From: Candidatus Zhuqueibacterota bacterium
GTDB lineage: Bacteria; BS750m-G25
Assembly: GCA_016783505.1 (NCBI GenBank)
Contig: JADHWK010000010.1
Coordinates: 1 to 61,209 of the forward strand
Direction: 5' to 3'
Length of the DNA: 61,209 nt
Numbering within the stretch: the stretch's first letter is position 1; each line of letters opens with the position of its first letter. Shown in pieces: positions 9,946-34,625 of the stretch. Below the pieces are notes generated by a model, which had not been told where the DNA came from, made no database searches, and worked only from the letters and a program-made list of their open reading frames with translations. The position numbers were made by a program, and so were the translations under genes.

Positions 9946-10050
9946 AAATCCCCGCAATAATCCAGACACGTATGAATGCCAAGAGGTTTCCGGGAAAAGT
10001 TATTCAGCACATACGCGGCAACCGTTTTTGAAAAAGAGTGATGTAGAATA
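9942..10050 (+). pseudogene. Broken SpsF-like cytidylyltransferase, 5' fragment
   Basis: The ATG at 9942 overlaps the previous stop (ATGA) and opens a 29-codon frame reading MKIPAIIQTRMNAKRFPGKV, the exact N-terminal signature of SpsF-like cytidylyltransferases, then stops with TGA at 10029-10031. Reading GGCAA-CCG with one A restored gives G-K-P-F-L-K-K, the expected continuation. So a one-base deletion near 10020 broke the gene, and homology then ends around 10050. The remaining roughly 200 codons are absent. This is a residue of a second CMP-sugar synthetase gene. Confidence 0.75.
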
Positions 10051-10076
10051 AAAAAAGAAAGGATATTTCTATAAAT

Positions 10077-11057: not shown

Positions 11058-11209
11058 TATTTTAAGCAACCCCTTAGAACGATCACAGGGGAATGAATCA
11101 CTCGATTACAGGGGTGAATGGCCTGAAGGACAAATACAAATCAGGCATGATAAACGGTCGTGATGAAGAATGTCACATCTCGTCTTGTTACTGTTAAGGA
11201 CAGGCGCCC

Positions 11210-12091: not shown

Positions 12092-12144
12092 TAGGGAAGG
12101 TGAACGGCCATTGCCGTCTTGTATTTCAAGATTCCAGAGAAAAC

Positions 12145-13032
12145 ATGAGAGGACCTGTTAAAAGACTGTTGCGATATGTCGTAAAAAATGATTTTACCTG
12201 GCGAATGATTGACGCGACCATCATACCTTTGTCCAATTATTGCCAGTGGCAGAGAGAGAAGATCAAATTATATCAAAACATGAATATCGATAGGGATGCT
12301 ATAAAATCGCTTTCAGACGAAATGGTCGTTAGAAACGGCCCCTTCAAAGGAATGAAATACCCCAAAATATCTGAAGGCGAAATTATGCTCCTGCCAAATG
12401 GGGGGGGCACATTTTTACCCAAATTGCTGGGTAGTTACGAGAGAGAGATTCAACCGGTCATAGAGAGAATATGTCAAACAGAGTATACAGAAGTAATCGA
12501 TGTCGGTTGCGCTGACGGTTATTATGCGGTGGGCCTGGCCTTAAACATGAAAAGTGCGAGAATCTATGCATTTGACACGGAAGAAAGGGCCCGGGTTTTA
12601 TGCAGAAGATTGGTGAAGGTTAATGGCGTGGGAGACAGCGTTCATGTTCACGGATCATTTTCAAGTGACAGGCTCATTAATTTTCCATTTACCGGAAGGG
12701 GACTCATATTGTGTGATTGCGAGGGGTTTGAAAAGGAGTTATTTACCAAAGAAGTGGTACCTTCCCTGGTAAATTGTGATTTGCTGATTGAGTTACACGA
12801 TTCCATCGATATCAATATATCTTCATATATTCTCAGCCTGTTTTCAAGGACGCATGACCAATTCATCATTGAGAGCATCGATGATATCCGGAAGGCCAAA
12901 ACATACTGTTTTAGTGAACTCGAAGGCTTAAACCTGGAAACAAAAAAATATATTTTACGGGAGAGGAGGGCATCTATCATGGAGTGGGTGTTTCTTCAAT
13001 CCAAACGATCTCGAACAAAGAACGAGCAATAG
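12145..13032 (+). CDS. FkbM-like SAM methyltransferase
   Basis: 295 aa from the ATG at 12145; a GTG at 12100 would add 15 residues that do not look structured. Motif I is EVIDVGCADGYYAVGLAL near residue 112, then IYAFDTEERARVL binds the ribose, and LILCDCEGFEKELF gives the acidic motif typical of FkbM-type enzymes. It is a second methyltransferase directly after the first and likely works on the same glycan. The acceptor cannot be read from sequence. Confidence 0.7.
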   Translation: MRGPVKRLLRYVVKNDFTWRMIDATIIPLSNYCQWQREKIKLYQNMNIDRDAIKSLSDEMVVRNGPFKGMKYPKISEGEIMLLPNGGGTFLPKLLGSYEREIQPVIERICQTEYTEVIDVGCADGYYAVGLALNMKSARIYAFDTEERARVLCRRLVKVNGVGDSVHVHGSFSSDRLINFPFTGRGLILCDCEGFEKELFTKEVVPSLVNCDLLIELHDSIDINISSYILSLFSRTHDQFIIESIDDIRKAKTYCFSELEGLNLETKKYILRERRASIMEWVFLQSKRSRTKNEQ

Positions 13033-13089
13033 CAAGAATATTGTCTATAAATAACCGCAGTCACGCATCATACTGGCAACGCCGATCAT

Positions 13090-14595
13090 ATGTCTGAAAT
13101 AGTACTCATCAATCCCAGAGTTACCGAAAACCGCTCTTCTTTTAAAGGGGAATACGCTGGGAGAGAGCCGCTTGGTGTATTAGCTCTTGGAAGTTTTTTG
13201 CACGGTAATAAGTATAATGTTGAAATTATTGATGCGAACCTTTATTACGAGAACGACGTTAGAGAGATGTTAGAATCAGTTCTTCACGAGTCAACAATCT
13301 TCGTCGGGTTTTCAGTAATGACTTCCCAGATTCCTCATGCTCTTGAGTTAAGTGATTACTTAAAGAAGGGAGATAAAAAACCATTTATTATATGGGGAGG
13401 AATCCATCCAACACTTTTTCCTAAGCAAACCTCCCTAAACCAAAACGTTGATTTGGTAATTTATGGGCCCGGAGAAGCCACATCACTTGAAGTGGCTAAA
13501 CAAGTTGAGTCAGGCGATTATGATTTTCAACATATTCAGGGGGTTTCAATTGGCGGAAGAATAAATGATGCGCGAGAAAAGGAGGACATAAATACTTTTC
13601 CTTTCTTTAATTATGACCTGCTTGATATCAAAAGATCTCTGAAGCCTTCCCTAGGTGTTTTATTTGGAAAAGACTCAAGGTCGTTAAATATTATATCATC
13701 AAGGGGATGTCCATGGAGATGCACTTTTTGCATTAACTATGCAACCAAAAACAGATGGAGAGGATTAACATCTGAGCGTTTTCTGGACGAATTGGAATAT
13801 CATATCGATAGGTATAAATTGGAAGCTGTTCGCATATTAGATGAGGACTTTTTTGTAAATGAAAAAAGAGTTACGGCTTTTATAGAAGGAATGGAAAAAA
13901 GAGATATTAGAATTAAATGGGGTACAAATGCTCGGGCAAATTACTTCAATGAAAAATATATTACTTTAGACTTTGCGAAAAGATTAAAGAATGTCGGGTG
14001 CAACTTTTTAGGGTTTGGAGCAGAGTCGGGAAGTAATCGAATTTTAAAGCTACTTAAGAAAGATATAAGTACAGGGCAGATATTGCATTCTGCAAAAATA
14101 TGTGCAAATGCAGGTATAAGGCCTCGTTACTCGTGGATGATCGGCATACCTGGACAAAGCAAGGAAGAAATGAAAAGTAATATTTTCTTGATGCGCGAAA
14201 TTAATAAAATCTGCCCTGAGGCTATGCATACTACAAATTGGATATATCGGCCATGGCCCGGCGGAGAGCTATATAATACAGCTAAGAAAGAAGGACTGAA
14301 AGAGCCGAAATCATTATCAGAGTGGGTTAGCTTTGGAGTTGATAAAAAGGATAACACAGGCTCTTATTCAGCAAAGGAGCTTCCTTGGATTGAGGACCAC
14401 ATCTTTGTTGAATTCCTTTCAAGATTCACGCCGCATATTATAGCGCAATTCCCGGAAAGATTGTCGCAGCGTTCCATCGTGGGCAAAATTGTAAAAGTGC
14501 TTTATTGGGCATGGGATTGGAAAATATGGAACTTTTTTGTTAAAACAATTGCCCGCATCCTCAATATCAGTTTTGACAAAAAACACTCCCAATAG
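13090..14595 (+). CDS. B12-binding radical SAM enzyme
   Basis: 501 aa. The N-terminal third has a cobalamin-binding Rossmann fold (VLINPR, GVLALGSFL, IIWGGIHPTLFP, DLVIYGPGE). The radical SAM core has the cluster motif Cys207-x3-Cys211-x2-Cys214 (RGCPWRCTFC), then FLGFGAESGSNRIL. Members methylate unactivated carbons or rearrange sugars and lipids. It sits between methyltransferases and an ABC exporter in a glycan locus, so C-methylation or rearrangement of a sugar is a reasonable inference. The sequence ends in a roughly 70-residue aromatic-rich tail of unknown role. Confidence 0.85.
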   Translation: MSEIVLINPRVTENRSSFKGEYAGREPLGVLALGSFLHGNKYNVEIIDANLYYENDVREMLESVLHESTIFVGFSVMTSQIPHALELSDYLKKGDKKPFIIWGGIHPTLFPKQTSLNQNVDLVIYGPGEATSLEVAKQVESGDYDFQHIQGVSIGGRINDAREKEDINTFPFFNYDLLDIKRSLKPSLGVLFGKDSRSLNIISSRGCPWRCTFCINYATKNRWRGLTSERFLDELEYHIDRYKLEAVRILDEDFFVNEKRVTAFIEGMEKRDIRIKWGTNARANYFNEKYITLDFAKRLKNVGCNFLGFGAESGSNRILKLLKKDISTGQILHSAKICANAGIRPRYSWMIGIPGQSKEEMKSNIFLMREINKICPEAMHTTNWIYRPWPGGELYNTAKKEGLKEPKSLSEWVSFGVDKKDNTGSYSAKELPWIEDHIFVEFLSRFTPHIIAQFPERLSQRSIVGKIVKVLYWAWDWKIWNFFVKTIARILNISFDKKHSQ

Positions 14596-14731
14596 GATGA
14601 AGATGGCCACACAATGTGAGAGCTTCTTGTGGTCAATTATCCTCTTAATTCAGGCCTTCTGACAAAGAATACGAGAATATTTTGACATGAAAATGAAAGA
14701 GGCATTTTCTTTATAACATCGCAGTAATTAA

Positions 14732-16585
14732 ATGGATCCTCAAATAGAAGAGAAAAGTTTCTATAAATTATCTAAAGAAATCTTCAAAAATATTCCATAT
14801 AAACGAAGAAAACAGTTTTGGTTTATTTTGTGTGGAATGATATTTTGCGCTGGATTTGAAACTGTCACTCTCGGTGCGATAGCATTTTATGCATCCACCA
14901 TTAATGATCCCGGGGCGATATTAGAATCGACCTATATGAAACGGATTCAGGATATAACGGGTTTTACATTTATCAATGACGTTTCAGGCCTCATTATAAT
15001 TCTGAGTGTCGTTGTTATCATCTTGGTATTGATGAAGAACCTCATGCTTACTATGTTAAAATACGTTGTTGCAAAATATACCTTAATGATCAGCCGGCAT
15101 TTTGGAGAATTAATCTTAAATGGTTTTTTGAGGATGCCATATGAATGGCATCTCACACAAAATTCGGCAGATTTGGTACTGGCTGTGCAATGGTCAAGTT
15201 TTTTCGGTGCCTACTCACAACTGGTTCTGAATATAATAAGTGACGCGTTCCTTGTCACCCTTATGATTTCTGCAATAATCACCCTGGAACCTTTACCGTC
15301 ACTGATCGTTTTAGTATTTTTAGGAGGCACTTCAGTAATTATATTTTTTAACGTCAGAAAACTAATCGATAAAAGTGCCTTTCGTTGTGCATCTTCTGAA
15401 GAAGCTATGAATAGATATGCGACAAGATCTTTACACGGAATTAAAGACGTAAAAATATTTGGAAAAGAGATCCCCTTTTTAAAAGCTTTCAGTGATGAGA
15501 TGAAAACGTTTATAAGGATGAGTGCCATAAGAGATGCCATCATTGGTATACCCGCTTATTTATTGGAATCTGTTGGATTTCTTGCCATTACATCTTCGGT
15601 TTGTATAATGATATTTTTAACGAATAAATCAAGTCTCAATATTATGGGAACGATAACGCTACTTGTGGTCGCTGCCTGGAGGATTTTACCCGCGGTTAAA
15701 AGAATGCTGGGAAGCATCAATGTGATGAGATCTTATCTTCCCTATCTGGGGAAAGAATTTAAATATATCGATGAATTTGAGGGTCAACTACAAGAATATC
15801 AACTTAAAACGTTTCTAGAAAGAAGTGCAGGTTTGGGAAAAGTTTTCAAGGAGAATATATGTTTGAAGGAAGTTTATTTCTCTTATAATGGTTCCTTGTC
15901 TTTCGCTCTACAAGATATTGGGCTGACAATAAGAAAGGCGACAACGGTGGGCATTATCGGAGCCTCTGGGGGCGGTAAGAGTACGCTTGTTGACATTTTA
16001 ATAGGGATATTGGCTCCGACAAAAGGTAATGTTATTCTTGATGGAAAGGAAATGGATAAAAGTAGCCTTGCTGAATGGATAGATGCAGTTGGATACGTGC
16101 CACAGACCCCCTATATTTTTGATGGTACCTTAGCACAAAATGTCGCTTTTGGGCTAAGAGATAATGAGATTGAAAGGGAGAAAGTCATTGAATGTTGTCA
16201 AATGGCCGCCATTGATTATCTTGAAGATTTATACAACGGTATCGATTCCTTGATTGGAGAGAGGGGCGTGCGGTTATCCGGTGGACAAAGACAGAGAGTG
16301 GCCATTGCAAGGGCGCTTTATAAGAGTCCTGAAACAATCATCTTTGATGAAGCAACAAGTTCTCTTGACACAAAGAGTGAAAAAGAGATTCAGAAGACCA
16401 TATATAGCCTGAAAAGAAATCACACTCTGATCATTGTTGCTCATCGTTTGAGCACTGTGGAGGATTGCGATTACATCGTTTGGATGGAAAAAGGAAAAGT
16501 AAACAAAGTCGGTAATTCTAAGGATATATTAAGGGAATATTCAAAAGGGGACGATATAGATAATTCGGAATATGAAAATAAGTAA
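14732..16585 (+). CDS. ABC exporter, MsbA/PglK-like flippase
   Basis: 617 aa, one polypeptide with an N-terminal six-helix membrane domain (to about residue 345) and a C-terminal ATPase. Walker A is residues 410-418 (GASGGGKST), the signature is LSGGQRQRVAIARAL, Walker B is TIIFDEATSSLD and the H-loop is IIVAHRLST. Length and order match lipid A or lipid-linked-oligosaccharide flippases, which act as homodimers in the inner membrane. As the only transporter in the window, it is the likely exporter of the glycan intermediate. Confidence 0.88.
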   Translation: MDPQIEEKSFYKLSKEIFKNIPYKRRKQFWFILCGMIFCAGFETVTLGAIAFYASTINDPGAILESTYMKRIQDITGFTFINDVSGLIIILSVVVIILVLMKNLMLTMLKYVVAKYTLMISRHFGELILNGFLRMPYEWHLTQNSADLVLAVQWSSFFGAYSQLVLNIISDAFLVTLMISAIITLEPLPSLIVLVFLGGTSVIIFFNVRKLIDKSAFRCASSEEAMNRYATRSLHGIKDVKIFGKEIPFLKAFSDEMKTFIRMSAIRDAIIGIPAYLLESVGFLAITSSVCIMIFLTNKSSLNIMGTITLLVVAAWRILPAVKRMLGSINVMRSYLPYLGKEFKYIDEFEGQLQEYQLKTFLERSAGLGKVFKENICLKEVYFSYNGSLSFALQDIGLTIRKATTVGIIGASGGGKSTLVDILIGILAPTKGNVILDGKEMDKSSLAEWIDAVGYVPQTPYIFDGTLAQNVAFGLRDNEIEREKVIECCQMAAIDYLEDLYNGIDSLIGERGVRLSGGQRQRVAIARALYKSPETIIFDEATSSLDTKSEKEIQKTIYSLKRNHTLIIVAHRLSTVEDCDYIVWMEKGKVNKVGNSKDILREYSKGDDIDNSEYENK

Positions 16586-16697
16586 ATAAGTAAATTGATT
16601 ATTGTCTTTTAAGGAAAAATGGTTGAAGGATTATTAGTATGAATTTTGTTGCGGTTAATATTCTTAGAAATTATTGAAGAATAAAGGATGCCTGTTC

Positions 16698-19067
16698 ATG
16701 ATTAATTTCAGCACAAAAGCTGGGACTTTAGAGGCTTTCAGGCCTCTTCTAAAAAAAAGCAAAATCTGTGAGAGTGTATATTTTACTGTAAATGAGTGGT
16801 CTAACAATTCTCATGAAATTATAAAAAGGATACAGCAAAGATTCTGTCACAGTAATATTATTGTGCGAAGCAGTACACTGAATGAGGATGGGGCTGATAC
16901 GTCCATGGCAGGGAGTTTCCATTCAAGTATGAACATTGATCCATCTTCCAAAAATGAAATAGAAGGTGCTGTAAATCAAGTGATCGAATCTTATGGGAAA
17001 TTGCGCTGTGATCATGATGAAGTCCTTGTTCAGCGCATGATTAATTCTGTCTCAATGAGTGGCGTGATATTTAGCCATGATCTGAATACAGGCGCTCCAT
17101 ATTACGTTGTTAATTATGACGATCTATCGGGAAAGACGGATACAATAACTTCTGGTAACGGTGATACAAGTCGAACCTTGTTAATTTATCGAACTCATAT
17201 ACGTGATCTACAATCTTCCCGGTTCAAGGGGCTTCTGGAAGCCGTTAGGGAAATCGAGGGGTTGTCTTCTTGTCCAGGGCTTGATATTGAATTTGCTGTC
17301 GCAAAAGATGAAACGATCTTCATTTTTCAAATTAGACGATTGGCAGTGCAGGAAAATTGGAATCGTAACATTTCTAATAAAATTGATACGTCACTCAAAG
17401 AAATAGCAGATTTTTTAGGGAATCGATTTCAAGCGAGGCACGGCATTTCAGGGCACATGTCCATCTTTGGCGAAATGCCTGACTGGAATCCTGCAGAAAT
17501 GATTGGCCCAGCACCCCGCCCCTTATCCCGTTCACTTTATGAAAAGCTAATTACGAACAGAATTTGGGCAGAGGCCAGGGCGGAGATGGGGTATCGTGAC
17601 TTGTCCGGAAGGCCTTTAATGGTTAATTTAGGTGGGCGTGTTTATATAGATGTCCGAGAAAGTTTCAACTCCTTTCTGCCCAGTGACCTTGATCCGAAGA
17701 TAGCAGAAAAACTGGTTTGCGCATGGCTTGAGCGATTGAAATCGAACCCTGAATTACATGATAAAATCGAGTTTGAGATTGCCATTACGGGTTATGCTTT
17801 TGATTTTGATCAAAAGATCTACCCTGTTTCTAATGTATTATCGGAGGGAGAAATTGAAAAATTCAAGAAATCACTCAAGAGATTCACTAACAATATTATT
17901 CTTGAAAAACGTGCAGGCATTCGCCAACAGTTAGATAGAATTGAGTATCTTGATAATAGCCGCAAAACGTTACTTAAAAAAAGCTCGCAGAACAACCAAA
18001 TTGAAATAGCAAGAGATTTATTAAATGATTGCAGGATATGGGGAACAAAACCCTTTTCCATTCTCGCCCGCGATGCGTTTATTGCGGAATCTTTTTTACG
18101 CTCCATGGAAGCCGTGAAAATTCTTAAGAGTAAGAGAATAAATTCATTTCGTAGATCAATAAATACAATACTGACGGAATTTTTGATTTCTATGGAAGCT
18201 TTACAAAAGAACGAAATTAAGAAGGAAGAATTTGTCGAGCGTTTCGGCCATTTACGTCCCGGAACTTATGATATTCTTGCAATAAGATATAGTAAACGTG
18301 AAAAGATGGAATCATTTGCTCCCGTTTCATTGGATGCTCATCAAGTTTCAAACCCCTTTGAGTTTTCAGATGTTGAAAAGGCATCGGTTAATCGAGTTCT
18401 GATTAATGAAGGTTTTGAGTTTGACAGCGATGTGCTGTTCGATTTTATTCGGAAAGCCATCTCGGGACGAGAATACTCAAAATTCATATTTTCACGTAAT
18501 ATTAGCGATGCACTTGAATTAATTGCAGAGTGGGGTGTGACAATCGGTTTGAATCGCGAGGAAATTTCTTTTCTTACAATTGATCAAATATTTCAAACTC
18601 TAACTCATACTTTTCATGAACCCATAGAGACTCGTTTACGAAATTTATCAGAGGAAGCGTTTAGGGAATATGAAATTACCCAGGCACTGCGTTTGCCCTA
18701 TCTGATTTCCAGGATAGAAGATATCTATATCGTTCCTTTACTTAAGAGCAGGCCCAACTTTATAACAAAAAAAAGGATGGAATGTCCTTTACATTATCTT
18801 TCAGGACATGAGATTCAATCATCTTGTCCTGATGGTCATATTATATTGACGGAGAGAGCTGATCCCGGACATGACTGGATATTTTTAAATCCAGTAGCAG
18901 GTTTGATTACTAAATATGGTGGTTCTAATTCCCATATGGCAATTAGATGTGCTGAATTGGGTATTCCTGCGGCAATTGGTTGTGGTGAACAATTATTTGA
19001 ATTGCTTCAACAGGCAAACAGGGTTCTGCTGGATTGTGGTTCTAAACTCGTTATCCCTATTCAATAG
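16698..19067 (+). CDS. L-glutamine kinase-like PEP-utilising enzyme (Cj1418 type)
   Basis: 789 aa. The N-terminal third is the ATP-grasp domain of PEP synthase/PPDK proteins (Arg57 in RSSTLNEDGADTSMAG). The C-terminal domain carries the phospho-carrier His746 in GGSNSHMAIRCAELGIPAAIG. There is no PEP/pyruvate barrel of the PPDK type. This two-ended plan fits Campylobacter Cj1418, which phosphorylates the amide nitrogen of L-glutamine with ATP as the first step to phosphoramidate. The downstream genes supply the other three steps. ATG 16698 has AAAGGA upstream; a TTG at 16674 is less likely. The alternative is an antibiotic-kinase-like PEP-utilising protein. Confidence 0.75.
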   Translation: MINFSTKAGTLEAFRPLLKKSKICESVYFTVNEWSNNSHEIIKRIQQRFCHSNIIVRSSTLNEDGADTSMAGSFHSSMNIDPSSKNEIEGAVNQVIESYGKLRCDHDEVLVQRMINSVSMSGVIFSHDLNTGAPYYVVNYDDLSGKTDTITSGNGDTSRTLLIYRTHIRDLQSSRFKGLLEAVREIEGLSSCPGLDIEFAVAKDETIFIFQIRRLAVQENWNRNISNKIDTSLKEIADFLGNRFQARHGISGHMSIFGEMPDWNPAEMIGPAPRPLSRSLYEKLITNRIWAEARAEMGYRDLSGRPLMVNLGGRVYIDVRESFNSFLPSDLDPKIAEKLVCAWLERLKSNPELHDKIEFEIAITGYAFDFDQKIYPVSNVLSEGEIEKFKKSLKRFTNNIILEKRAGIRQQLDRIEYLDNSRKTLLKKSSQNNQIEIARDLLNDCRIWGTKPFSILARDAFIAESFLRSMEAVKILKSKRINSFRRSINTILTEFLISMEALQKNEIKKEEFVERFGHLRPGTYDILAIRYSKREKMESFAPVSLDAHQVSNPFEFSDVEKASVNRVLINEGFEFDSDVLFDFIRKAISGREYSKFIFSRNISDALELIAEWGVTIGLNREEISFLTIDQIFQTLTHTFHEPIETRLRNLSEEAFREYEITQALRLPYLISRIEDIYIVPLLKSRPNFITKKRMECPLHYLSGHEIQSSCPDGHIILTERADPGHDWIFLNPVAGLITKYGGSNSHMAIRCAELGIPAAIGCGEQLFELLQQANRVLLDCGSKLVIPIQ

Positions 19068-19093
19068 CGAGGGATAATAATAAGGGGGCATTA

Positions 19094-19606
19094 ATGGTAC
19101 TCTGGTTAATTGGGCTTTCGGGTGCTGGTAAAACAACTCTGGCAGAGGAAATTGTGTCTTTAGCAAGAAAGGATGTTTCTAACGTTGCATTGATAGATGG
19201 TGATATTATACGTGAATTATTTAGCAATGATCTTGGACACTCGCTTGAAGACCGCAAAAAAAATGCGGATAGAATTTGTCGTCTTTGTAAATTCATGGAT
19301 GATCAACAAATCCACGTTGTATGCGCTATTCTTTCTCTATTTCCAGAATCAAGGGAATGGAATCGAGAAAATATAAGAAACTATTTTGAGGTTTTTATTG
19401 ATGCTCCTTTTGAACACCTTGTTGAAAGAGATTACAAAGGTTTGTATCATAAAGCTCTCAACAATGAAATTAAGGATGTTGCTGGTATGGATATAGAATT
19501 TGCCCAACCAACAAGTTCAGATCTGATTATCAAAAACGATGAAGGGAAAGAAAAATTATTATCATTTGCCCCTATGCTTGCTAACAAAATAATTGGAGAA
19601 AATTAG
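19094..19606 (+). CDS. APS kinase-like protein, candidate CDP-amidate kinase (Cj1415 type)
   Basis: 170 aa, a single-domain CysC-fold kinase. The P-loop GLSGAGKTT is at residues about 8-16, LIDGDIIRELF is the substrate-binding DGD segment, and FIDAPFEHLVERDYKGLY matches the APS-kinase VxxPxxxxxxRDxKGLY signature. No sulfate adenylyltransferase is encoded nearby, so ordinary PAPS synthesis is unlikely. In C. jejuni the homologous Cj1415 phosphorylates the 3'-OH of cytidine diphosphoramidate. The glutamine kinase-like gene directly upstream supports that role. Inference from context, but strong. Confidence 0.75.
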   Translation: MVLWLIGLSGAGKTTLAEEIVSLARKDVSNVALIDGDIIRELFSNDLGHSLEDRKKNADRICRLCKFMDDQQIHVVCAILSLFPESREWNRENIRNYFEVFIDAPFEHLVERDYKGLYHKALNNEIKDVAGMDIEFAQPTSSDLIIKNDEGKEKLLSFAPMLANKIIGEN

Positions 19607-19607
19607 A

Positions 19608-20375
19608 ATGAACTATTCTTACAGTAACGAGAATCGAATAGTTTCACCATGTACCTATATGTATACTCCTTATGAAGGAATATCACTGTTAGAAAGTTAT
19701 TCATCAAACCGTGGTATTTTCCTTAACAAAGGCAGAGAGATAATTCGTAACACGGTTGAAATTGATGCAATGATCAAGGAAATCTTGAATTGTGGAATAA
19801 ATGAATATCTCCAGATTGCAAAAAAAGAGGGTGATGAAAAAGTATCGGACGGATTATCAGGAATTATTAAAGACCATGCATGGCTTGCCGATAATTTTTT
19901 ATTACAAAAAGGCAACTCAGGATTATCCCGAAAAAAGGAAATATTGGAGTCATTTTCTCCTGATAGAAAAGTAGAGACGATGAGTCTCTTGATTTCCTTA
20001 TTTAGCAATATCCTGAGTAATTTAAAACATTCGCCTTTAGTGAAAATGTGGATGGACAGGTTAGTGCAGCGTTTTGAGGTGACAAAAAAGCTTTACGAAA
20101 GATACAAACCAGGATTTCGAAAAGGGGAAGGAAAGAGCGAGCGCCTCATTTTATATGCGCTATTTGCAATGATTTTATCTATTTACTATTATAAAAACAA
20201 GAACTTGAAATACTTGAACGCATTATTGAAAATCAATGACACGCTTATTTCTGTAATTGTTAAATTAGCAGACGTTTACCCCGCAATTTTCATGGCATAC
20301 TTATCGGCATCATGCGAAGACTGTTTTGTCGGAAAGTTAGTAAAAAGCAAGGGGATAATGGATGCCACTATCTGA
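19608..20375 (+). CDS. Unknown mostly helical protein in the phosphoramidate operon
   Basis: 255 aa from ATG 19608, one base after the kinase stop, with GGAG ten bases upstream. I do not recognise the family. It looks alpha-helical and soluble, with one hydrophobic stretch near residues 181-196 (LILYALFAMILSIYYY) and a Cys pair near the end (SCEDC). It overlaps the next gene by 14 bases, so it is surely co-translated with the formyltransferase-like protein. No catalytic motif is visible. It could be an accessory subunit or a new enzyme of the pathway. Confidence 0.7.
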   Translation: MNYSYSNENRIVSPCTYMYTPYEGISLLESYSSNRGIFLNKGREIIRNTVEIDAMIKEILNCGINEYLQIAKKEGDEKVSDGLSGIIKDHAWLADNFLLQKGNSGLSRKKEILESFSPDRKVETMSLLISLFSNILSNLKHSPLVKMWMDRLVQRFEVTKKLYERYKPGFRKGEGKSERLILYALFAMILSIYYYKNKNLKYLNALLKINDTLISVIVKLADVYPAIFMAYLSASCEDCFVGKLVKSKGIMDATI

Positions 20376-21102
20376 TATAGGGATGATCATAGCGGATACA
20401 CCAAGGTCTAAAACTTATGTGCAGGCTCTTGTGCAAAATAAACTGGTACCAAATCTTGTCCTTATAATGAAAAGTGAATTAAATGACATGTTACCCGGTC
20501 AAACGGCGGATGGAATAGCTGACAGCGTTCATGTTATTCCAGATCAATTCTCGAAGGTTGGTTTTGTGTTTAAGCCTTCTGAAGCCCTTGAGGACACACT
20601 GACACAATCTGGAATTCCTTTTCAGTATGTACCCTCTGTTGATATCAACAGTGATGAGGTAATATTCGCCATACAAGAAAGGTCAGAAACTGTATTTATT
20701 TATTCTGGATTTGGCGGTGCCATTCTAAGAAACAAAATTTTGAGCATTGACAAAAAATTTCTCCATATTCATGGTGGATATTTGCCCGATTACAAGGGGA
20801 GTACAACGAACTATTATAGCTTGATTAATGAAAATGAATGTGGGGCGTCATCAATTTTCATGGAGGAGGAAATTGATAGTGGTCCTATATTAATTCGCAG
20901 ACGATTTTCACCGCCTGAAGATCGCAGAGAAATAGACTATATTTATGATTCGATATTTCGAGCTAAAGTTCTTGTTGAGACAATTCAGAAGTTTAGTATA
21001 GATGGTAGATGGCATTTCGAAGTTCCAAATAACTCTGGCGGGGAAACCTATTTCATTATTCATCCTGTTTTAAAACATATTGCAATCCTTTCTAACACAT
21101 AG
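20362..21102 (+). CDS. Formyltransferase-fold protein with altered active site
   Basis: 246 aa. The core matches GART/methionyl-tRNA formyltransferase folds: HIHGGYLPDYKGST holds catalytic His137, and EEIDSGPIL holds catalytic Asp172. The usual Asn two residues before the His is His135 instead (HIH, not NxH). The formyl-donor chemistry may therefore differ. Sugar formyltransferases of glycan loci have this fold, but this one sits between kinase and methyltransferase genes of the presumed phosphoramidate operon. It may formylate an amine on the same residue or act on a carbamoyl or amidate group; open. Confidence 0.7.
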   Translation: MPLSDIGMIIADTPRSKTYVQALVQNKLVPNLVLIMKSELNDMLPGQTADGIADSVHVIPDQFSKVGFVFKPSEALEDTLTQSGIPFQYVPSVDINSDEVIFAIQERSETVFIYSGFGGAILRNKILSIDKKFLHIHGGYLPDYKGSTTNYYSLINENECGASSIFMEEEIDSGPILIRRRFSPPEDRREIDYIYDSIFRAKVLVETIQKFSIDGRWHFEVPNNSGGETYFIIHPVLKHIAILSNT

Positions 21103-21130
21103 GATTGTTTGGTGAATTTACCTCTTCTTA

Positions 21131-21928
21131 ATGAGAATCACATACAGAACGCAACATGTAAAACAATATTGGACTAAACGCTGGGATGATATTCCCGCTG
21201 ATGCTCCAATGGAAAATGCTGATGTATATCCGCTAAAATACGCGGAGCTTACTGTCAGATCTAATGATGGTAGAATCTTAGAAGCTGGGTGCGGAGCTGG
21301 GCGAATCCTTCGATATTACAAGAATAGGGGCTATGACATTGTTGGGATAGATTTCATCAAAGGTGCTGTGGAAAAATTAAAAGGCATTGACCCTGAGTTG
21401 AATGTTGAAGTGGGTGATATAACTCGCTTAAGGTTTGAAGAAAATTCCTTTAAATATGTACTTTCATTTGGCTTATATCATAATTTAGAGCATGGACTCG
21501 ACAAGGCAATACGTGAAACATATCGCGTCCTTCAGCCAGGGGGGGGGGTGTGTGCCTCATTCAGGGCAGACAATATTCAAACAAGATTAACTGACTGGTT
21601 GGCTGATCATCGCAGAAAAAAGCAAGCGGGGAGCGCACATGCTACTGAATTTCACAAAAGGAATCTAAAACGATCAGAGTTTGTTGATGTATTCAATCGT
21701 GCTGGTTTCAAAGTTGAAAAAGTTTATCATGTAGAAAATATGCCCATATTTTATAAATTTAGATTTTTCCGATCACAGGGCCACAAGATTTTCAATGAAA
21801 ACATGGCCAGAAAAGAAGGATACAGATTATCTCCTTTAGGCAACACAATTCAAAAGATCCTTATCCGTTATTTCCCCGACCAGTTTTGCAATATTTATGT
21901 CGCGATTGCTCGAAAGCCAGAAAGGTAA
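21131..21928 (+). CDS. Class I SAM methyltransferase, candidate phosphoramidate O-methylase
   Basis: 265 aa. Motif I is RILEAGCGAGRILRYY near residue 49, then DIVGIDFIKGAVEKL, VEVGDITRLRF and a YHNLEHGLDKAIRETYRVLQPGG stretch, all classic methyltransf_11 landmarks. The C-terminal 80 residues are basic. In C. jejuni the phosphoramidate group is O-methylated by methyltransferases encoded beside Cj1415-Cj1418, so this gene is the natural candidate here. A general sugar methyltransferase is equally possible from sequence alone. Confidence 0.75.
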   Translation: MRITYRTQHVKQYWTKRWDDIPADAPMENADVYPLKYAELTVRSNDGRILEAGCGAGRILRYYKNRGYDIVGIDFIKGAVEKLKGIDPELNVEVGDITRLRFEENSFKYVLSFGLYHNLEHGLDKAIRETYRVLQPGGGVCASFRADNIQTRLTDWLADHRRKKQAGSAHATEFHKRNLKRSEFVDVFNRAGFKVEKVYHVENMPIFYKFRFFRSQGHKIFNENMARKEGYRLSPLGNTIQKILIRYFPDQFCNIYVAIARKPER

Positions 21929-21937
21929 TACTGTACG

Positions 21938-22627
21938 GTGTCGTTACTCATAGGGATAACCCAGCGAGTCAGTGTAGTTCCTGAGTACGGAGAACGTCGT
22001 GATGCGTTAGACCAGGCTTGGGTTGGTTTTTTTTCGGCATGCAATTTAGATCCCTTGATAATCCCCAACAGGCTCGCTGATCCTGTTGCGTATGCCCAAA
22101 AGATGGGAGTAAAAGGAATTGTTTTAACAGGCGGTAATAATTTTTCTGATGCCGTAAAGACAATACAAAACTTGCCCGTGCGCAATTTACCGCAAAGCGA
22201 TGATCTGGCGCCAGAGAGAGATGCAACAGAAATTGCTCTTTTGAAACAAAGTATTGAAAAAGGATGGCCTGTAATTGGTGTTTGTAGAGGAATGCAATTA
22301 TTAAATCTCTTTTACGGAGGGGAAATAGGCTCTGTCGAAAACCATGTTGGATTATATCATGATCTAACAACCAAAGAGAAAATAGGAATTCCATTTGAAG
22401 TTATGTTTGATAATCCGGTGAATTCATTCCATGATTTTGGAATTCATTCAAGTGGTATGAGTCCTGAGTTTAATATATTGGCACAGACAGGTGATGTGGT
22501 TGAGTCCTTTGTTCATCGAGAATATCCACATATGGGGATAATGTGGCATCCGGAGCGAAATGTTAATCCGTCTGTTAATGATGTTAATCTATTTCGTAAT
22601 TATTTTGCATGCTGGATTAAAGAATGA
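21938..22627 (+). CDS. Class I amidotransferase-type hydrolase, candidate gamma-glutamyl-CDP-amidate hydrolase (Cj1417 type)
   Basis: 229 aa, GTG start nine bases after the methyltransferase. It is a free-standing glutaminase fold close to the PuuD/peptidase C26 group, with nucleophile Cys116 in GVCRGMQLLNL and His204 plus Glu206 in MWHPER. Cj1417 has this fold and removes glutamate from gamma-glutamyl-CDP-amidate to release CDP-amidate. An ATGA overlap joins it to the cytidylyltransferase gene, as expected for consecutive steps. Gamma-glutamyl-GABA hydrolase is the alternative but does not fit the context. Confidence 0.78.
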   Translation: MSLLIGITQRVSVVPEYGERRDALDQAWVGFFSACNLDPLIIPNRLADPVAYAQKMGVKGIVLTGGNNFSDAVKTIQNLPVRNLPQSDDLAPERDATEIALLKQSIEKGWPVIGVCRGMQLLNLFYGGEIGSVENHVGLYHDLTTKEKIGIPFEVMFDNPVNSFHDFGIHSSGMSPEFNILAQTGDVVESFVHREYPHMGIMWHPERNVNPSVNDVNLFRNYFACWIKE

Positions 22628-23385
22628 CAAAAGTTATCATTTTGGCGGCTGGTGAAGGTACCCGTCTTCATCCCTATACTTTGGATTGCCCTAAATGTTT
22701 GGTGAAAGTAGGCGGTAAAAGCTTGCTGGATTATCAACTCGCTGTTTTGAAAAGTCAAGGCATTGAACACATTGTTCTCATTAAAGGATATCTTTCTGAT
22801 ACATTGCATAGACCCGGCGTAATGACTTATTGCAACGAAAGGTACGCTGACACAAATATGGTCTGGACACTCTTTTGTGCTGAAGAGGAAATGACAGGCA
22901 ATGTGATCGTATCCTATGGCGATATTGCCTATTCAAAAGAAGTTCTAATTGAATTGATGAAATCTTCACAAAATATCTCTGTTGTTGTCGATAGGGGGTG
23001 GAAAACATATTGGGAGACTCGATTTGATAATCCATTGGATGATGCCGAAACGTTGAAAATTGGACATGACGGAAGGATTGTAGAAATTGGTCAAACCCCC
23101 AACAGTTTAGACGAAATTGAAGGGCAGTACATAGGTTTAATGAAATTTTCTGAAAAAGGTTTGTCTTCGCTTAAAGAGTTATTCAAGAAGTCGAAATCCG
23201 CTGGAATGTTAGGCACAAAAGGACCAGAAAAAGCGTATATGACAGATTTGCTGCAGGCAGCTATAGATAAAGGATACGATGTCTGGCCCGTTTTTATTGA
23301 GGGAGATTGGGTGGAAGTCGATACAGTCAATGATTTGAATTTGGAAATTACAAGGCAACGCTTGGAAAAAATATCCCGGATGTAA
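22624..23385 (+). CDS. Nucleotidyltransferase, candidate CTP:phosphoglutamine cytidylyltransferase (Cj1416 type)
   Basis: 253 aa. VIILAAGEGTRLHPYTLDCPKCLVKV is the sugar-nucleotidyltransferase signature, VSYGDIAY the metal-binding loop, and ETRFDNPLDDAETLKI with GDWVEVDTVNDL completes a LicC/Cj1416-like plan. Cj1416 couples CTP with phosphoglutamine. Together with the hydrolase, the glutamine kinase and the CysC-like kinase, all four known phosphoramidate-activating enzymes have counterparts within 6.7 kb. Phosphocholine cytidylyltransferase is the main alternative, but no choline kinase or LicD gene is seen. Confidence 0.78.
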   Translation: MTKVIILAAGEGTRLHPYTLDCPKCLVKVGGKSLLDYQLAVLKSQGIEHIVLIKGYLSDTLHRPGVMTYCNERYADTNMVWTLFCAEEEMTGNVIVSYGDIAYSKEVLIELMKSSQNISVVVDRGWKTYWETRFDNPLDDAETLKIGHDGRIVEIGQTPNSLDEIEGQYIGLMKFSEKGLSSLKELFKKSKSAGMLGTKGPEKAYMTDLLQAAIDKGYDVWPVFIEGDWVEVDTVNDLNLEITRQRLEKISRM

Positions 23386-23527
23386 GTATAGGGCGAAAAG
23401 CCAGCCGATAATGAATAACTGGATTTTTTTGTAGATCAGAATTGTCCGATTAGGTTTTTGCATAATTCAAGAGCAATTGTGTAAATTTTTAAATCGAAAA
23501 AATGAAATTGGATTAAATGTGGGAAAT

Positions 23528-24721
23528 ATGAAAATTGACAGTATTCCGGTTGTATTTTTATTAGGTGTGGGAAGGTGTGGGGGTGATTTAACAAGGGGAA
23601 TTCTGGATTGGCATGATCAAGTGCTTATTATTCCTATTTCAAACAAGTTTTACCCTACATGGAAAAGTTATAAATGTGATTATATTGATGATCCTGACAA
23701 AATAGCGGATATTTTCTTAAACAATTCGAAGTTATCTTGGTTCAAAGAAAATAAGTTTATTCATAGCTATAGCCAGTTTGAATATGATTTTTCTGATGTT
23801 AATTGGAAGATATTTAATACCTCATTTCACGAATATTTGCATAAGCACAAATTATGTGCACGTAATGTATATTATGGTATTTTTTATGCTTATGCATGTG
23901 CCTGTAATAAAAGAATTGAGAAGGTTCGTGTAATCATTGCAGATGCCTTTTATGATAATTATATGTCAGAAATATTGAATGATTTTTCCGATGCGAGATT
24001 CATACATATCGTAAGGGATCATAGGGCTAATATCTCCTCACTCAAATCTTTCTTCTTGACTATGTACGGAACCCTTGTCTATCCTGGAAAAGGATTGAAG
24101 TTTGGCAGATCACTTTTTATACATATTATCAATGATTATATGGTTAAAGTAATGCGAATGCTCCATGATAACAAGAAAACAATGAGTGCTGATTATCTAA
24201 GAGTGATACGTTTTGAAGATATAAAACTAAATCCTAAATCAACGATAGAAGGCCTTGCTGGCTGGTTAGGTATTGATTTTAATGAGTGTTTAATGAAACT
24301 GACTAAAGTTGGAAAATTGGTACATGGAAATAGCAGTTTTTATGACCAGCCTGTTGAAGGATTCACCATTGAACCTGTATACAGATGGAAGAAACATTTG
24401 CGTTGTTACGAAATTAGAATGATTGAGTTCATTTTTGGTCAGAGCATGCTTAATCTCGACTATAAACCTGTTTATAGTCGGAATCCGGTCTCTAAATTAA
24501 TCGGATTTATCTGTTGTTTTATGCCATGGAAAGGCGAAATATTTTATATGGGGTATATGAAAAAGGCTCATGCACTCTCAAAATTTAAGCGTTTTTTAAG
24601 ATGTTATGTGATACCTTTTTATTATTTCCCTAGAAACATTTTGATGTTTTTCATTAGCAGAGCATTTTTTTTAAAGCTTTTCATCAAAGGTTATTTAAAA
24701 GTGGTTCCTCATGAGAAGTAG
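23528..24721 (+). CDS. Sulfotransferase-like protein, candidate phosphoramidate transferase
   Basis: 397 aa from ATG 23528; a TTG at 23477 is less likely. LLGVGRCGGDLTRGIL near residue 11 resembles the 5'-phosphosulfate loop, and FIHIVRDHRANISS places Arg163 and Ser170 seven residues apart as in the 3'-phosphate-binding motif of PAPS sulfotransferases. No PAPS-making genes are nearby, but the presumed operon product, 3'-phospho-CDP-amidate, also has a 3'-phosphate and a transferable group on a diphosphate. I infer that it moves phosphoramidate to the glycan. The C-terminal 60 residues are hydrophobic and basic and may touch the membrane. Confidence 0.65.
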   Translation: MKIDSIPVVFLLGVGRCGGDLTRGILDWHDQVLIIPISNKFYPTWKSYKCDYIDDPDKIADIFLNNSKLSWFKENKFIHSYSQFEYDFSDVNWKIFNTSFHEYLHKHKLCARNVYYGIFYAYACACNKRIEKVRVIIADAFYDNYMSEILNDFSDARFIHIVRDHRANISSLKSFFLTMYGTLVYPGKGLKFGRSLFIHIINDYMVKVMRMLHDNKKTMSADYLRVIRFEDIKLNPKSTIEGLAGWLGIDFNECLMKLTKVGKLVHGNSSFYDQPVEGFTIEPVYRWKKHLRCYEIRMIEFIFGQSMLNLDYKPVYSRNPVSKLIGFICCFMPWKGEIFYMGYMKKAHALSKFKRFLRCYVIPFYYFPRNILMFFISRAFFLKLFIKGYLKVVPHEK

Positions 24722-25098: not shown

Positions 25099-26148
25099 TT
25101 GAATATAAGCAACTTGGAAGAAAACAAAAAGGACTTTATATCTGCAGCTATAATAGGATGCGGTAATATTGCTAGTGGTCTAGATGATGATGTCAAAAAG
25201 CGGCATATTTACAGTCACGCAAAAGCCATTAGTTTTGTTAAAGCCATTAGATTAGTTGCCTGTTGCGATATAGATGAAAGCCGGCTTTTAGATTTCAGTG
25301 AAAAATGGCATGTTCCCAGAGCATATATTACTTTAGAGAAAATGCTTGGTGAGGAAAAAATTGATATTTTGATAATAGCGACGCCAGCTAAGTGCCACCA
25401 CGATAACCTTCTTACGGCATTAACGAGTGAAGTGGAGGTGATATTTTGCGAGAAGCCCTTTGTCCTTGATTTTGAATTGGGAATGAAGATTGTAAAAAAC
25501 GAAAGGGAAAGAGATAAACTGATTACTGTAAACTACATGAGGCGGTGGGATAAATTTTACGCTGAATGCAAGCGTATTTTGGAGACTGGACAGCTTGGAC
25601 GGATCGAAACGATTGTCGGGTATGTGGATACTGCATTATACATGAACTCCATCCACATGCTGGACATGCTTGCCTATTTTGGCGGAGATGTGTTGTCCTG
25701 TACAGGGTATTTGGATAAGACATCAGAACCCAGAATTGTCCATGGAAAACCCGATGTTGGAGGTATCGCGCTTTTCAGACATAAAAACGGGGTCACCAGT
25801 TTTTTCAAAGGGACAGGGGAAAGCCGGCGGAACCACTTCTTTGAACTTGACATCCAGTGCACAAAGGGCCGGATGCGGATCCTAAACGACGACGAAAAAT
25901 ATGAGATATACAGATTTGACGAGAGCCCGCAGCATACAGGACTTGTTGAGTTAAAGCTGACGGAAACAAAGTATAATGCTGATCAGGATGAACGGGTGGT
26001 GAATGTGTACCGTGAAATTGTTGACTACCTGAAAACTGGCAGACTGCCCTCCTATACCGCTAAAGACGCCCTGAAATCCCTGGAAATGGTTAATATGATC
26101 TATGAATCAGACGCTCTTGATCATCAACTGATTTTTTCAAGACTTTGA
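25099..26148 (+). CDS. Gfo/Idh/MocA-family oxidoreductase
   Basis: 349 aa from a TTG start; no ATG precedes the Rossmann motif AAIIGCGNIASGLDDD, so the TTG is needed. FCEKPFVLDFE is the EKP catalytic motif near residues 119-129. These NAD(P)-dependent enzymes oxidise or reduce sugars. It begins a Gfo/Idh, DegT, NeuA-like operon. The arrangement recalls the Campylobacter PtmF/PtmB neighbourhood of legionaminate synthesis. A divergent, broken paralogue starts at 35471. Confidence 0.82.
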   Translation: MNISNLEENKKDFISAAIIGCGNIASGLDDDVKKRHIYSHAKAISFVKAIRLVACCDIDESRLLDFSEKWHVPRAYITLEKMLGEEKIDILIIATPAKCHHDNLLTALTSEVEVIFCEKPFVLDFELGMKIVKNERERDKLITVNYMRRWDKFYAECKRILETGQLGRIETIVGYVDTALYMNSIHMLDMLAYFGGDVLSCTGYLDKTSEPRIVHGKPDVGGIALFRHKNGVTSFFKGTGESRRNHFFELDIQCTKGRMRILNDDEKYEIYRFDESPQHTGLVELKLTETKYNADQDERVVNVYREIVDYLKTGRLPSYTAKDALKSLEMVNMIYESDALDHQLIFSRL

Positions 26149-26156
26149 GGTGAACC

Positions 26157-27542
26157 ATGAAACTGGCGCTTCTGGGTGGAAAGCCTGTGAGACATAAGCC
26201 ATTCAAATCACAGCCTTATGTTACAGAAGAAATGATTAAAAGGGTTGCCAGTCTTTTGCGGGAAAAAAGACTCACAAGGTTTATCGGTTCACCTGTAGAG
26301 GGATCCCGCAGGATTATAGGCCTCAAAAGCAGGGAGTCTGAGGATCTGAGGGATGCTTTTTCAGTTCTGGGGGGTCCCAGCGTCAGAAAGCTCGAAAGCG
26401 AGTGGTCGAAGAAACATGAGGTTGATTACTCTGTGGCGGTGAATTCAGCAACGTCAGGATTGACTGCGGCGATTATGGCCCTGAATTTGGGACCGGGCGA
26501 TGAGTTGATCTGTTCCCCGTTTTCATTTACGGCTTCCGCCACCGCCATTGTGGCCGCTAATGTGATTCCCGTTTTTGCGGACATTGACCCGGAGACGTTC
26601 TGTCTGTCCCCGGAGTCAGCAGAAGCGGCAATAACGGATTGCACAAGAGCAATTATGCCTATCCACTGGAACAGCAACGCCGGGCAACTGGAAGAAATAT
26701 TGTCGCTTGCTGATCAAAAAGGGCTCAAGGTGGTTGAAGATGCATCTCAGTCCCCGGGTATGCGATACAGGGGGAAACATCTGGGGACGCACGGAGACGC
26801 GGGTGTGTTTTCTCTAAACGAACCCAAAAACATCATGACCGGTGAGGGCGGAGTTATTGTAACGCATGATAGGGATATCGCAATAAAGTGCAGGCTCATT
26901 CGAAATCACGGGGAAGCCATTGTTGATGAAGACGCGCCCGATGATCTGCTAATCAATGCAATCGGTTACAACTTCAGGCTGGTTGAGCTACTTGCTGAAA
27001 TCGGTGTTGATCAGTTGCAACACCTTGAGTATCTAAACAATATCCGAAAAGAGAATTATGAGTACCTTGTTCAAAGAATGGTCAATGAGTTTGGAAACTG
27101 CATCAAGCCTCAGAAAATCACCCATCCTGAGAGCTACTGTCCCTATGCTGCCGGTTTTCGTTGGCTGGCGAGTGACATCGTGATACACCGCAACATTGTG
27201 GCCAAAGTACTTCGTTCTGAGGGCATACCTGTAGCAGACGGAATTTCAAGACTAATGTCAGATAATCCGCTCTTTCAAAGACAATTGGCATACGGTCGGG
27301 ACCATTGTCCATTTTCCTGCCACCTTTACAAGAATAGGGCCATTTACTTTATTCGTGATCTTCCCAATGCAAGAAAGCTCCAGGATGAAGAATATTTGGG
27401 ATTTTTCCAGATGGGCTGGCCCAATACGCCGGAAGATATGGATGACATTATCCAAGCATTCAAGAAGATACTTGATAACAAGCATCATTTAAGCGGAAAA
27501 GCCAGCATCATTAATAACAGCGGATTTGTGTCTGGTCGATAA
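26157..27542 (+). CDS. DegT/DnrJ/EryC1/StrS aminotransferase
   Basis: 461 aa, longer than the usual 370-400. The N-terminus LALLGGKPVRHKPF and the pocket segments NSATSGLTAAI, VVEDASQSPG and SLNEPKNIMTGEGG (Schiff-base Lys) are clear. An extra roughly 40-residue segment (about 43-82, basic and Ser-rich) separates the N-terminal arm from the fold and accounts for the length. It starts 8 bases after the Gfo/Idh gene and ends 8 before the NeuA-like gene. It probably works on the keto-sugar made by the upstream oxidoreductase. Confidence 0.82.
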   Translation: MKLALLGGKPVRHKPFKSQPYVTEEMIKRVASLLREKRLTRFIGSPVEGSRRIIGLKSRESEDLRDAFSVLGGPSVRKLESEWSKKHEVDYSVAVNSATSGLTAAIMALNLGPGDELICSPFSFTASATAIVAANVIPVFADIDPETFCLSPESAEAAITDCTRAIMPIHWNSNAGQLEEILSLADQKGLKVVEDASQSPGMRYRGKHLGTHGDAGVFSLNEPKNIMTGEGGVIVTHDRDIAIKCRLIRNHGEAIVDEDAPDDLLINAIGYNFRLVELLAEIGVDQLQHLEYLNNIRKENYEYLVQRMVNEFGNCIKPQKITHPESYCPYAAGFRWLASDIVIHRNIVAKVLRSEGIPVADGISRLMSDNPLFQRQLAYGRDHCPFSCHLYKNRAIYFIRDLPNARKLQDEEYLGFFQMGWPNTPEDMDDIIQAFKKILDNKHHLSGKASIINNSGFVSGR

Positions 27543-27550
27543 GGGGGAAT

Positions 27551-28267
27551 ATGGAAGTCCTGGCGGTGATACCTGCGCGCGGAGGGTCGGTCCGTGTGCC
27601 AAAAAAAAATATTCGGCTGCTAAACGGCAAGCCATTGATTGCCTATGCCATCGAGGCAGCAAAAACCTCCCGGAGCGTTGATCGTATTGTCATTTCAACG
27701 GACGATGAAGAAATAAAGCAGGTTGCATTGGAGTATGGGGCTGAAGTTCCCTTCAAGCGGCCCGCAGAAATTTCAGAGGATGTTCCTACAGAAGATGTGG
27801 CGCTTCACGCGGTCAACTGGTTAAAGGAATCTGAATCCTACCTGCCGGATATTGTGGTTTGCCTTGAGCCCCCGGTTCCCTTTAGAAGGGCGGAGCATAT
27901 CGATAAATGCGTTGAGGGTATGGTGCAAAATGACGAAGTGGATTCGGCCATTACGGTTGTCAACATAAGAGGATTCAGGCCTGAATGGATGGTACGCATT
28001 GACAATGCAGGTTTCATCCAACCTTATACCGACTACTTTACCAGGCGAGGTGAGGCCCTGCTCAAATTTCCAGCCAGCCAGGAATTCGAAAAATTGTATA
28101 AGACCAGCGGTGTTGTGTTTTCGTGCAGAACAGAGACGCTTGTTCGGTATCAGAGTTTTGTCGGAAAGAAATGTTTGGCAATAGTGATCGATCCTTCGGA
28201 TGTATTTGATCTGGATTATCCTGAGGATTTTGATATGTGCGAAATATTGATGCAAAGGCGGAATTAG
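27551..28267 (+). CDS. NeuA-like CMP-nonulosonate cytidylyltransferase
   Basis: 238 aa. VLAVIPARGGSVRVPKKNIR is the acylneuraminate cytidylyltransferase signature, followed by IVISTDDEEI, FKRPAEISEDVPTED and a terminal VFDLDYPEDFDMCEIL, typical of PtmB/NeuA types. It should activate a nine-carbon acid with CTP. It closes the Gfo/Idh-DegT operon, and the substrate is probably the product of the NeuB fusion at 31615. A 3'-remnant of a paralogue survives near 36020-36196. Confidence 0.85.
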   Translation: MEVLAVIPARGGSVRVPKKNIRLLNGKPLIAYAIEAAKTSRSVDRIVISTDDEEIKQVALEYGAEVPFKRPAEISEDVPTEDVALHAVNWLKESESYLPDIVVCLEPPVPFRRAEHIDKCVEGMVQNDEVDSAITVVNIRGFRPEWMVRIDNAGFIQPYTDYFTRRGEALLKFPASQEFEKLYKTSGVVFSCRTETLVRYQSFVGKKCLAIVIDPSDVFDLDYPEDFDMCEILMQRRN

Positions 28268-28314
28268 GGGCTGAAAGTGAGAAAACATACGATGGCAAGG
28301 ATGGAGGTATTGAA

Positions 28315-28527
28315 ATGAGCGAAAAAGGTGGGCCTTTGTTCAAGAACCTTCGCTACTGCACAAGATGCTGCATGCCTGAAACCAATGAAGGCATACAGTT
28401 TGATGAGATGGGGATATGCCTGGCGTGCCGGTCTTCTAAACAAAAGATGCATATTGACTGGAGTAAACGCAAAGAGCGTTTGCTTGAGATTCTCGCGGAG
28501 TAACGTTCGAAAAAATCTGACTATATT
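28315..28527 (+). pseudogene. WbpG/PseA-like amidotransferase, N-terminal remnant
   Basis: The ATG at 28315 opens 62 codons containing RYCTRCCMPETNEGIQFDE and GICLACRSS, the paired-Cys head of N-acetyl-sugar amidotransferases (WbpG, PseA, PtmG). TAA at 28501-28503 stops the frame, yet the next codons still read R-S-K-K-S-D-Y-I, which resembles the expected family sequence where Tyr is normal. So a Tyr codon probably mutated to TAA; a TGA then follows at 28528 and homology ends. The PP-loop ATPase body is missing. The 235 bases to the next gene hold nothing else I can name. Confidence 0.72.
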
Positions 28528-28763
28528 TGAAATTTCTAACTCAACTGAGAAGTGCTTTATTATAAACAGATATCAACTTTCTGAAAGACAAATTCGCAGA
28601 TTTGCAAGGTAAGAATCTAACGTTGCAAAAAGCGAAGGATGATTGACTCAGGTAATTAAGCTGCCTTCTGAACAAAATCCAGGAAGTGCAACATATCCTT
28701 TCTGGCTGGGATAACTTGGCGGGTCTAGATTCAGTTTATCCCAAAGGAATGAGGTAGAAGCCT

Positions 28764-29480
28764 GTGGAAGATATACACATCGGATGTATCTGCGCTAACG
28801 ATAGCCCATTTGTAGGAAGAATCATAGGAGCGCTTTTGAGTAGTGGCCTAAGCGTCGATACAATCATCTTTGATTCGAAGAATTTTGGAATACATGGATT
28901 ACAGCTATTTGAGGAAAGAACAGGGGGCAAAATGCCTTTGATTTCTATTGATGAGTTTGATGAATACAAGATACCATGTTTCTTTGTTAAAAATTTCAAT
29001 TCATCTGTTGCAATAAGCATTGTAAGGTCATTTAATCTCGATATTCTGATTAATGCCGGAACAGCAAGAATTCTTAGAAAAGACATCATCAATGCTCCAA
29101 AGATTGGAGTATTAAATTGTCATCCCGGACTATTGCCCGATTTTCGAGGATGTACATGCGTGGAATGGGCCGTATTCCTGGATGAAAGGATTGGGAACAC
29201 CGTTCATTTCATGAATGAAAGGATTGATGAAGGCCCGATTATTCTCAAAGAGGCGCTATGTTTTTCAAAAAATGACCTCTATCCTGATGTACGTACAAAA
29301 GTACTTCTGGATGGTATCCAATTAATTGCCAAAGCTGTACGTAAAATCTTAAAAGAGAATGTTACGCCCACTACATTAGCTAAGCAAGGAACAGGTCGAT
29401 ATTTTGATGTTATCGATGATAATAAAATGATATGCGTGATAGATAAACTAAAAAGGGGTAAATATAGGTATCAATTATGA
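28764..29480 (+). CDS. Sugar formyltransferase-like protein
   Basis: 238 aa, GTG start. It has the full formyltransferase triad: Asn118 and His120 in LNCHPGLLPDFRG and Asp155 in ERIDEGPII. It should transfer a formyl group from N10-formyl-tetrahydrofolate to an amino sugar; a carbamoyl or other one-carbon role is less likely. It is unlike its cousin at 20362, which lacks the Asn. ATGA overlap with the following gene indicates translational coupling. Confidence 0.78.
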   Translation: MEDIHIGCICANDSPFVGRIIGALLSSGLSVDTIIFDSKNFGIHGLQLFEERTGGKMPLISIDEFDEYKIPCFFVKNFNSSVAISIVRSFNLDILINAGTARILRKDIINAPKIGVLNCHPGLLPDFRGCTCVEWAVFLDERIGNTVHFMNERIDEGPIILKEALCFSKNDLYPDVRTKVLLDGIQLIAKAVRKILKENVTPTTLAKQGTGRYFDVIDDNKMICVIDKLKRGKYRYQL

Positions 29481-31582: not shown

Positions 31583-31614
31583 CAGGTGATAAACCGGGAA
31601 ATCTTGGATCGGGT

Positions 31615-33894: not shown

Positions 33895-33927
33895 AAGGAC
33901 GTTATTCATTTGTAAAGGAGATAAAAT

Positions 33928-34590: not shown

Positions 34591-34625
34591 AAGTCGCATA
34601 TCCTTATAAGAAAGGTGATTGGCTT

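Follow-up and report, generated by a model that had tools for sequence, protein, structure and literature searches.

Phosphorus-nitrogen bonds are rare in biology. In Campylobacter jejuni, the O-methyl phosphoramidate (MeOPN) of the capsule is a phage receptor and affects serum resistance; its pathway comprises four activation enzymes (Cj1415-Cj1418), the Cj1419/1420 methyltransferases and the Cj1421/1422 transferases. MeOPN is made by most of the Campylobacter species that have orthologues (9 of 13 tested, PMC3907429), and one account treats glutamine kinase as specific to C. jejuni (PMC9561416). Outside Campylobacter, surface-glycan phosphoramidate without the O-methyl group occurs on the lipopolysaccharide (LPS) of Xanthomonas campestris and Shewanella MR-4, according to work cited in PMC3907429, and here the comparison is by reported chemistry. 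We analysed a 61,209-nucleotide stretch of contig JADHWK010000010.1 (the window) from Candidatus Zhuqueibacterota bacterium (GCA_016783505.1), in which an eight-gene run carries the same four activation families as the C. jejuni pathway, with the same catalytic residues, close linkage and glycan setting. Unlike that pathway, the window cassette is without both a Cj1419/1420-type methyltransferase and a DUF2972 transferase; it adds two genes, ORFX and FMT (formyltransferase fold), between kinase and hydrolase, together with a sulfotransferase-fold candidate transferase.

The eight genes fill positions 16698-24721, all on the + strand and with gaps or overlaps of <100 bases, so the open reading frame (ORF) positions and the tight gene run described in the original prediction were correct. 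For comparison, relatives of the first gene product were gathered among whole genomes, plasmids and the contigs of named genomes, including the C. jejuni-labelled loci L049 and L050. This product, a predicted glutamine kinase (GlnK, Cj1418-like; 16698-19067, with an alternative TTG start 24 bases upstream of 16698), has PPDK_N and PEP-utilizers domains, that is, an ATP-grasp region and a C-terminal phosphohistidine domain. It scored 879.8 bits against NCBIfam NF004508 (cut-off 501) and was 35% identical to the L049 protein across 772 aligned residues. Its His746 aligned with C. jejuni His737, which is reported to be the phosphorylated residue in the enzymology published by Taylor and Raushel. 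The putative cytidine-diphosphate (CDP)-amidate 3'-kinase (APSK, Cj1415-like, APS_kinase PF01583; 19094-19606) was 33% identical to its L049 counterpart. The corresponding values were 31% for the putative gamma-glutamyl-CDP-amidate hydrolase (Cj1417-like, Peptidase_C26/GATase; 21938-22627), whose Cys116, His204 and Glu206 match C101, H178 and E180, and 41% for the putative phosphoglutamine cytidylyltransferase (Cj1416-like, NTP_transf_3; 22624-23385), which keeps every family-conserved residue. Across the four proteins, nearly all family-conserved residues were kept relative to L049. The original prediction had assigned the four genes to Cj1415-Cj1418-type families and had proposed alignment with the C. 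jejuni proteins as a check; the alignments with L049 and L050 bear out all four assignments, and the catalytic residues it had named are correctly numbered and conserved. Homology thus supports the presence in the window of a predicted CDP-amidate activation set like that of C. jejuni.

The same protein families include housekeeping enzymes, and the genes might instead encode a phosphoenolpyruvate (PEP) synthase, an adenosine 5'-phosphosulfate (APS) kinase, a PuuD-like amidase, a phosphocholine cytidylyltransferase and a sulfotransferase using 3'-phosphoadenosine-5'-phosphosulfate (PAPS), gathered in a glycan locus. The best solved-structure matches do fall in those families, and the genome can probably make PAPS. 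However, the NF004508 score is far above its cut-off, and the four genes belong to a conserved cassette that has orthologues in C. jejuni. In a gene tree, the window APSK fell among cassette kinases, including Cj1415, whereas the second APS kinase of this genome fell with canonical enzymes; the gene of the latter and that of ATP sulfurylase are ~2 kb apart on contig C87, and there is also a separate PPDK-type gene, on contig C88. The original prediction had named membership of the housekeeping families as the outcome that would count against it, and we saw the opposite, with the kinase on the Cj1415 side of the tree and the housekeeping copies elsewhere in the genome. We therefore rejected the housekeeping explanation as very improbable. 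At the canonical locus (L146:4627-8840), the APS kinase and ATP sulfurylase genes are interleaved with those of two phosphodiesterase/sulfatase-like proteins.

Among 94 GlnK loci, the contigs of some of which end early, a hydrolase was nearby in 88, a cytidylyltransferase in 88 and an APS-kinase-like protein in 69. This clustering is far beyond chance and defines a conserved cassette. The loci come from Campylobacterota, Pseudomonadota, Bacillota, Spirochaetota, Bacteroidota, Nitrospinota, Nitrospirota, Acidobacteriota, Verrucomicrobiota and other phyla; Candidatus Zhuqueibacterota is represented in the searched set by the present genome only. There are two main kinds of cassette. At least one Cj1419/Cj1420-type methyltransferase accompanies 65 of the 85 loci that lack ORFX, and the other kind carries a kinase-ORFX-FMT module. 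A Lachnospiraceae locus has an AlgX-like (SGNH acyltransferase-like) protein at the ORFX-FMT position between kinase and hydrolase (L075:12849-13925), perhaps a third tailoring option. GlnK appears to have an extra N-terminal cytidylyltransferase-like domain at L037, L038 and L058. On a Cupriavidus taiwanensis symbiotic plasmid (L039:11947-14310), a GlnK relative near nif genes adjoins a TPP enzyme and an aminotransferase, with neither hydrolase nor cytidylyltransferase; this locus perhaps makes a phosphoglutamine-derived small molecule.

ORFX (19593-20375) and FMT (20362-21102) lie between kinase and hydrolase in the window, where a neighbourhood profile survey found no Cj1419/1420-type methyltransferase. 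The module is present in 11 cassettes, the window included. The order kinase-ORFX-FMT recurs at the Pseudomonas-type loci L086, L089, L090 and L135 and at L136, L076, L137 and L142; L142, L076, L086, L089 and L090 were reached through GlnK, and L135, L136 and L137 through the FMT profile alone. A wider search with that profile added L158 and L159, both within GlnK cassettes; 5/5 FMT relatives found by the profile alone (~1,100 genome searches) belong to such cassettes. APSK and ORFX form a single 381-residue ORF at L158, and at L159 FMT precedes the kinase, with an apparent diverged ORFX, recognized by eye and missed by the profile, directly before FMT. Cj1419/1420-type (MTA/MTB) methyltransferases occurred at 0 of 11 module loci compared with 65 of 85 others (Fisher exact 9.6e-7, a value that overstates independence in that the loci share ancestry).

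On the GlnK tree, the module is found on at least four separate lineages, with the GlnKs of L076 and L137 grouping with those of Lachnospiraceae. Seven of the nine module kinases tested, including the window APSK, formed one clade (support 100/94). Given this combination of several GlnK lineages and one main kinase clade, the module seems to be exchanged whole between cores. ORFX had no Pfam or NCBIfam match, and its AlphaFold model was all-helical and too weak for a fold search (mean pLDDT 43.6). Searches against plasmids gave no match for ORFX and, for FMT, only partial matches to other formyltransferases. The original prediction had suggested that the extra genes may yield a new final group, and this idea gains ground from the recurrence of ORFX-FMT in other phyla in place of Cj1419/1420-like methyltransferases. 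The ORFX-FMT branch did not come up in the literature searched, which lacks most primary enzymology of the pathway. At the Pseudomonas-type loci L086, L089 and L090 (about 6000-19500), the module cassette directly follows flagellar hook-associated genes, and flagellar glycans of Pseudomonas may carry the group.

The FMT model (pLDDT 75) has a formyltransferase fold, and its best Protein Data Bank matches were ArnA and Fmt (E 3e-12). In common with Formyl_trans_N enzymes such as Fmt, ArnA, VioF and WbkC, FMT keeps the LPxYRG (10-formyl-tetrahydrofolate) loop, His137 and Asp172. It differs from them in its C terminus (YxIHPxLKH in most members), in its linkage to CDP-amidate genes and in the replacement of the catalytic Asn by His135, giving HxH rather than NxH in all module members. 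Other formyltransferases at module loci are of NxH type wherever the motif is readable, and HxH is confined to the FMT subfamily.

The last gene of the run (23477-24721) encodes a protein of the Sulfotransfer_3 family whose profile matches solved sulfotransferases. It belongs to the same fold family as PAPS sulfotransferases and shares their two motifs for binding the 5'- and 3'-phosphates of the donor, with GRCGG at about residue 32 and VRD...S at about residue 179, and differs from them in its clustering with CDP-amidate genes and in its proposed donor, 3'-phospho-CDP-amidate. Relatives, all of one family, occur at about one-sixth of cassette loci, and none is more than 4.4 kb from GlnK, even though most such loci were read for up to 10 kb in both directions. 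The proposed donor is closely analogous to PAPS, and on this basis we suggest that the sulfotransferase-fold protein is the phosphoramidate transferase. No CJ1421-like match to the Cj1421/1422-like (DUF2972) transferases was detected in the window. In a comparison of the Cj1421-like and sulfotransferase profiles, the match was confined to a short segment around the VRDP motif (E 2e-4) with only 45% probability, and the Cj1421-like profile had no solved-structure match; we treat this resemblance as no more than a lead. The SHGxG and LVRDPIS motifs of MeOPN transferases of the DUF2972 type (L049:3-1229, L060, L062 and L063) resemble sulfotransferase donor sites. No paper in the literature searched combined sulfotransferases with capsule phosphoramidate.

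Taken together, we consider it likely that the operon produces activated phosphoramidate destined for a surface glycan, a group which would be tailored by ORFX-FMT and moved by the sulfotransferase-fold protein. The core steps very probably proceed as in the characterized C. jejuni enzymes: the cytidylyltransferase would couple the GlnK product to cytidine monophosphate (CMP), the amidase would strip glutamate to leave CDP-amidate, and the APSK-like kinase would put on a 3'-phosphate. We are reasonably confident that ORFX-FMT acts inside this pathway, where the pair would tailor the phosphoramidate at the stage at which Cj1419/1420-type methylation otherwise occurs. Those methyltransferases move a one-carbon (C1) unit from S-adenosylmethionine (SAM), and formyltransferases move one from folate. 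The simplest hypothesis is that FMT, helped by ORFX, caps the phosphoramidate with a formyl unit from 10-formyl-tetrahydrofolate, yielding formyl- instead of methyl-phosphoramidate. As the exact chemistry, formyl transfer is a tentative proposal, with chances somewhat below even. That the sulfotransferase-fold protein would then use the PAPS-like 3'-phospho-CDP donor to place the group on a glycan hydroxyl seems, on balance, the better bet.

Several observations weigh against this scheme. All enzyme activities and the glycan itself are predicted from genes, and the best NCBIfam match of the hydrolase, NF045546, scored 102 bits, under the cut-off of 250. The kinases of L076 and L137 are not members of the main module clade. 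Nor is the transferase constant: at other module loci, a CDP-glycerol-phosphotransferase-like gene takes the place of the sulfotransferase gene, and its product would likewise suit a CDP-linked donor. Without its catalytic Asn, FMT might have a changed chemistry or transfer nothing at all. In addition, methyltransferases of another type (MT or MT431) are encoded in the window and at five further module loci, making methylation possible; the window MT (Methyltransf_11; 21131-21928) is not of the Cj1419/1420 type and resembles a Cj1419-like protein and the Pseudomonas module methyltransferase only at the level of the fold.

Two other explanations accept the phosphoramidate core and assign ORFX-FMT differently. 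FMT might N-formylate an amino sugar within this glycan and merely travel with the cassette, in keeping with its fold matches, which are sugar N-formyltransferases and Fmt, and with the aminotransferase and NeuB-type genes downstream in the window. Yet ORFX-FMT replaces the usual methyltransferases, the kinase-ORFX-FMT order is kept and includes one kinase fusion, the genomes searched showed the module only alongside GlnK, and the window has another formyltransferase, of NxH type, at 28764-29480; we regard acceptor formylation as unlikely, at about one chance in four. A little less likely still is that the group is plain or O-methyl phosphoramidate, methylated by MT, with ORFX-FMT as a scaffold or protective partner that transfers no C1 unit. 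The additional methyltransferases and the lost Asn just described fit this idea, as does the unmethylated phosphoramidate reported for Xanthomonas and Shewanella LPS (PMC3907429), but no family relationship was detectable between the window MT and MT431, and L076, L136, L137, L158 and L159 keep FMT without any of the methyltransferase families tested. Tailoring of the phosphoramidate by ORFX-FMT is the reading we prefer.

Directly upstream of GlnK is the gene for an ABC exporter of the PglK/MsbA kind (14732-16585, + strand; PglK and MsbA were the best NCBIfam matches, both below cut-offs), which probably moves a glycan intermediate. It lies outside the conserved core, with ABC relatives at 15 of 94 loci. 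Downstream, positions 25099-35471 form a sugar-acid type locus with genes for an oxidoreductase, a DegT aminotransferase, a CMP-sugar synthetase-like protein and an SDR protein, and for a large NeuB-type fusion with CBS, SAF and TIM-barrel domains; the second formyltransferase gene lies within it.

The cassette is widespread and modular, with varied candidate transferases, a distribution that may already have been noted in papers beyond the literature searched. The replacement of methylation genes by a formyltransferase-like pair suggests a still undescribed version of the phosphoramidate group. More speculatively, and with odds we would put at roughly one in three, several phyla may share a second phosphoramidate branch, in which a folate-dependent HxH FMT and a kinase-bound ORFX would produce N-formyl- or otherwise C1-modified phosphoramidate instead of the O-methyl form, for transfer to glycans, including those of Pseudomonas flagella, by sulfotransferase-fold or CDP-glycerol-type enzymes. 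If true, the sulfotransferase link would account for the 3'-phosphate of the donor, the transferases being built like PAPS sulfotransferases, and the ORFX-FMT branch would be a new surface chemistry. Given what MeOPN does in phage binding and serum resistance, its unrecognized relatives could be important to recognition by phages and hosts in other bacteria.

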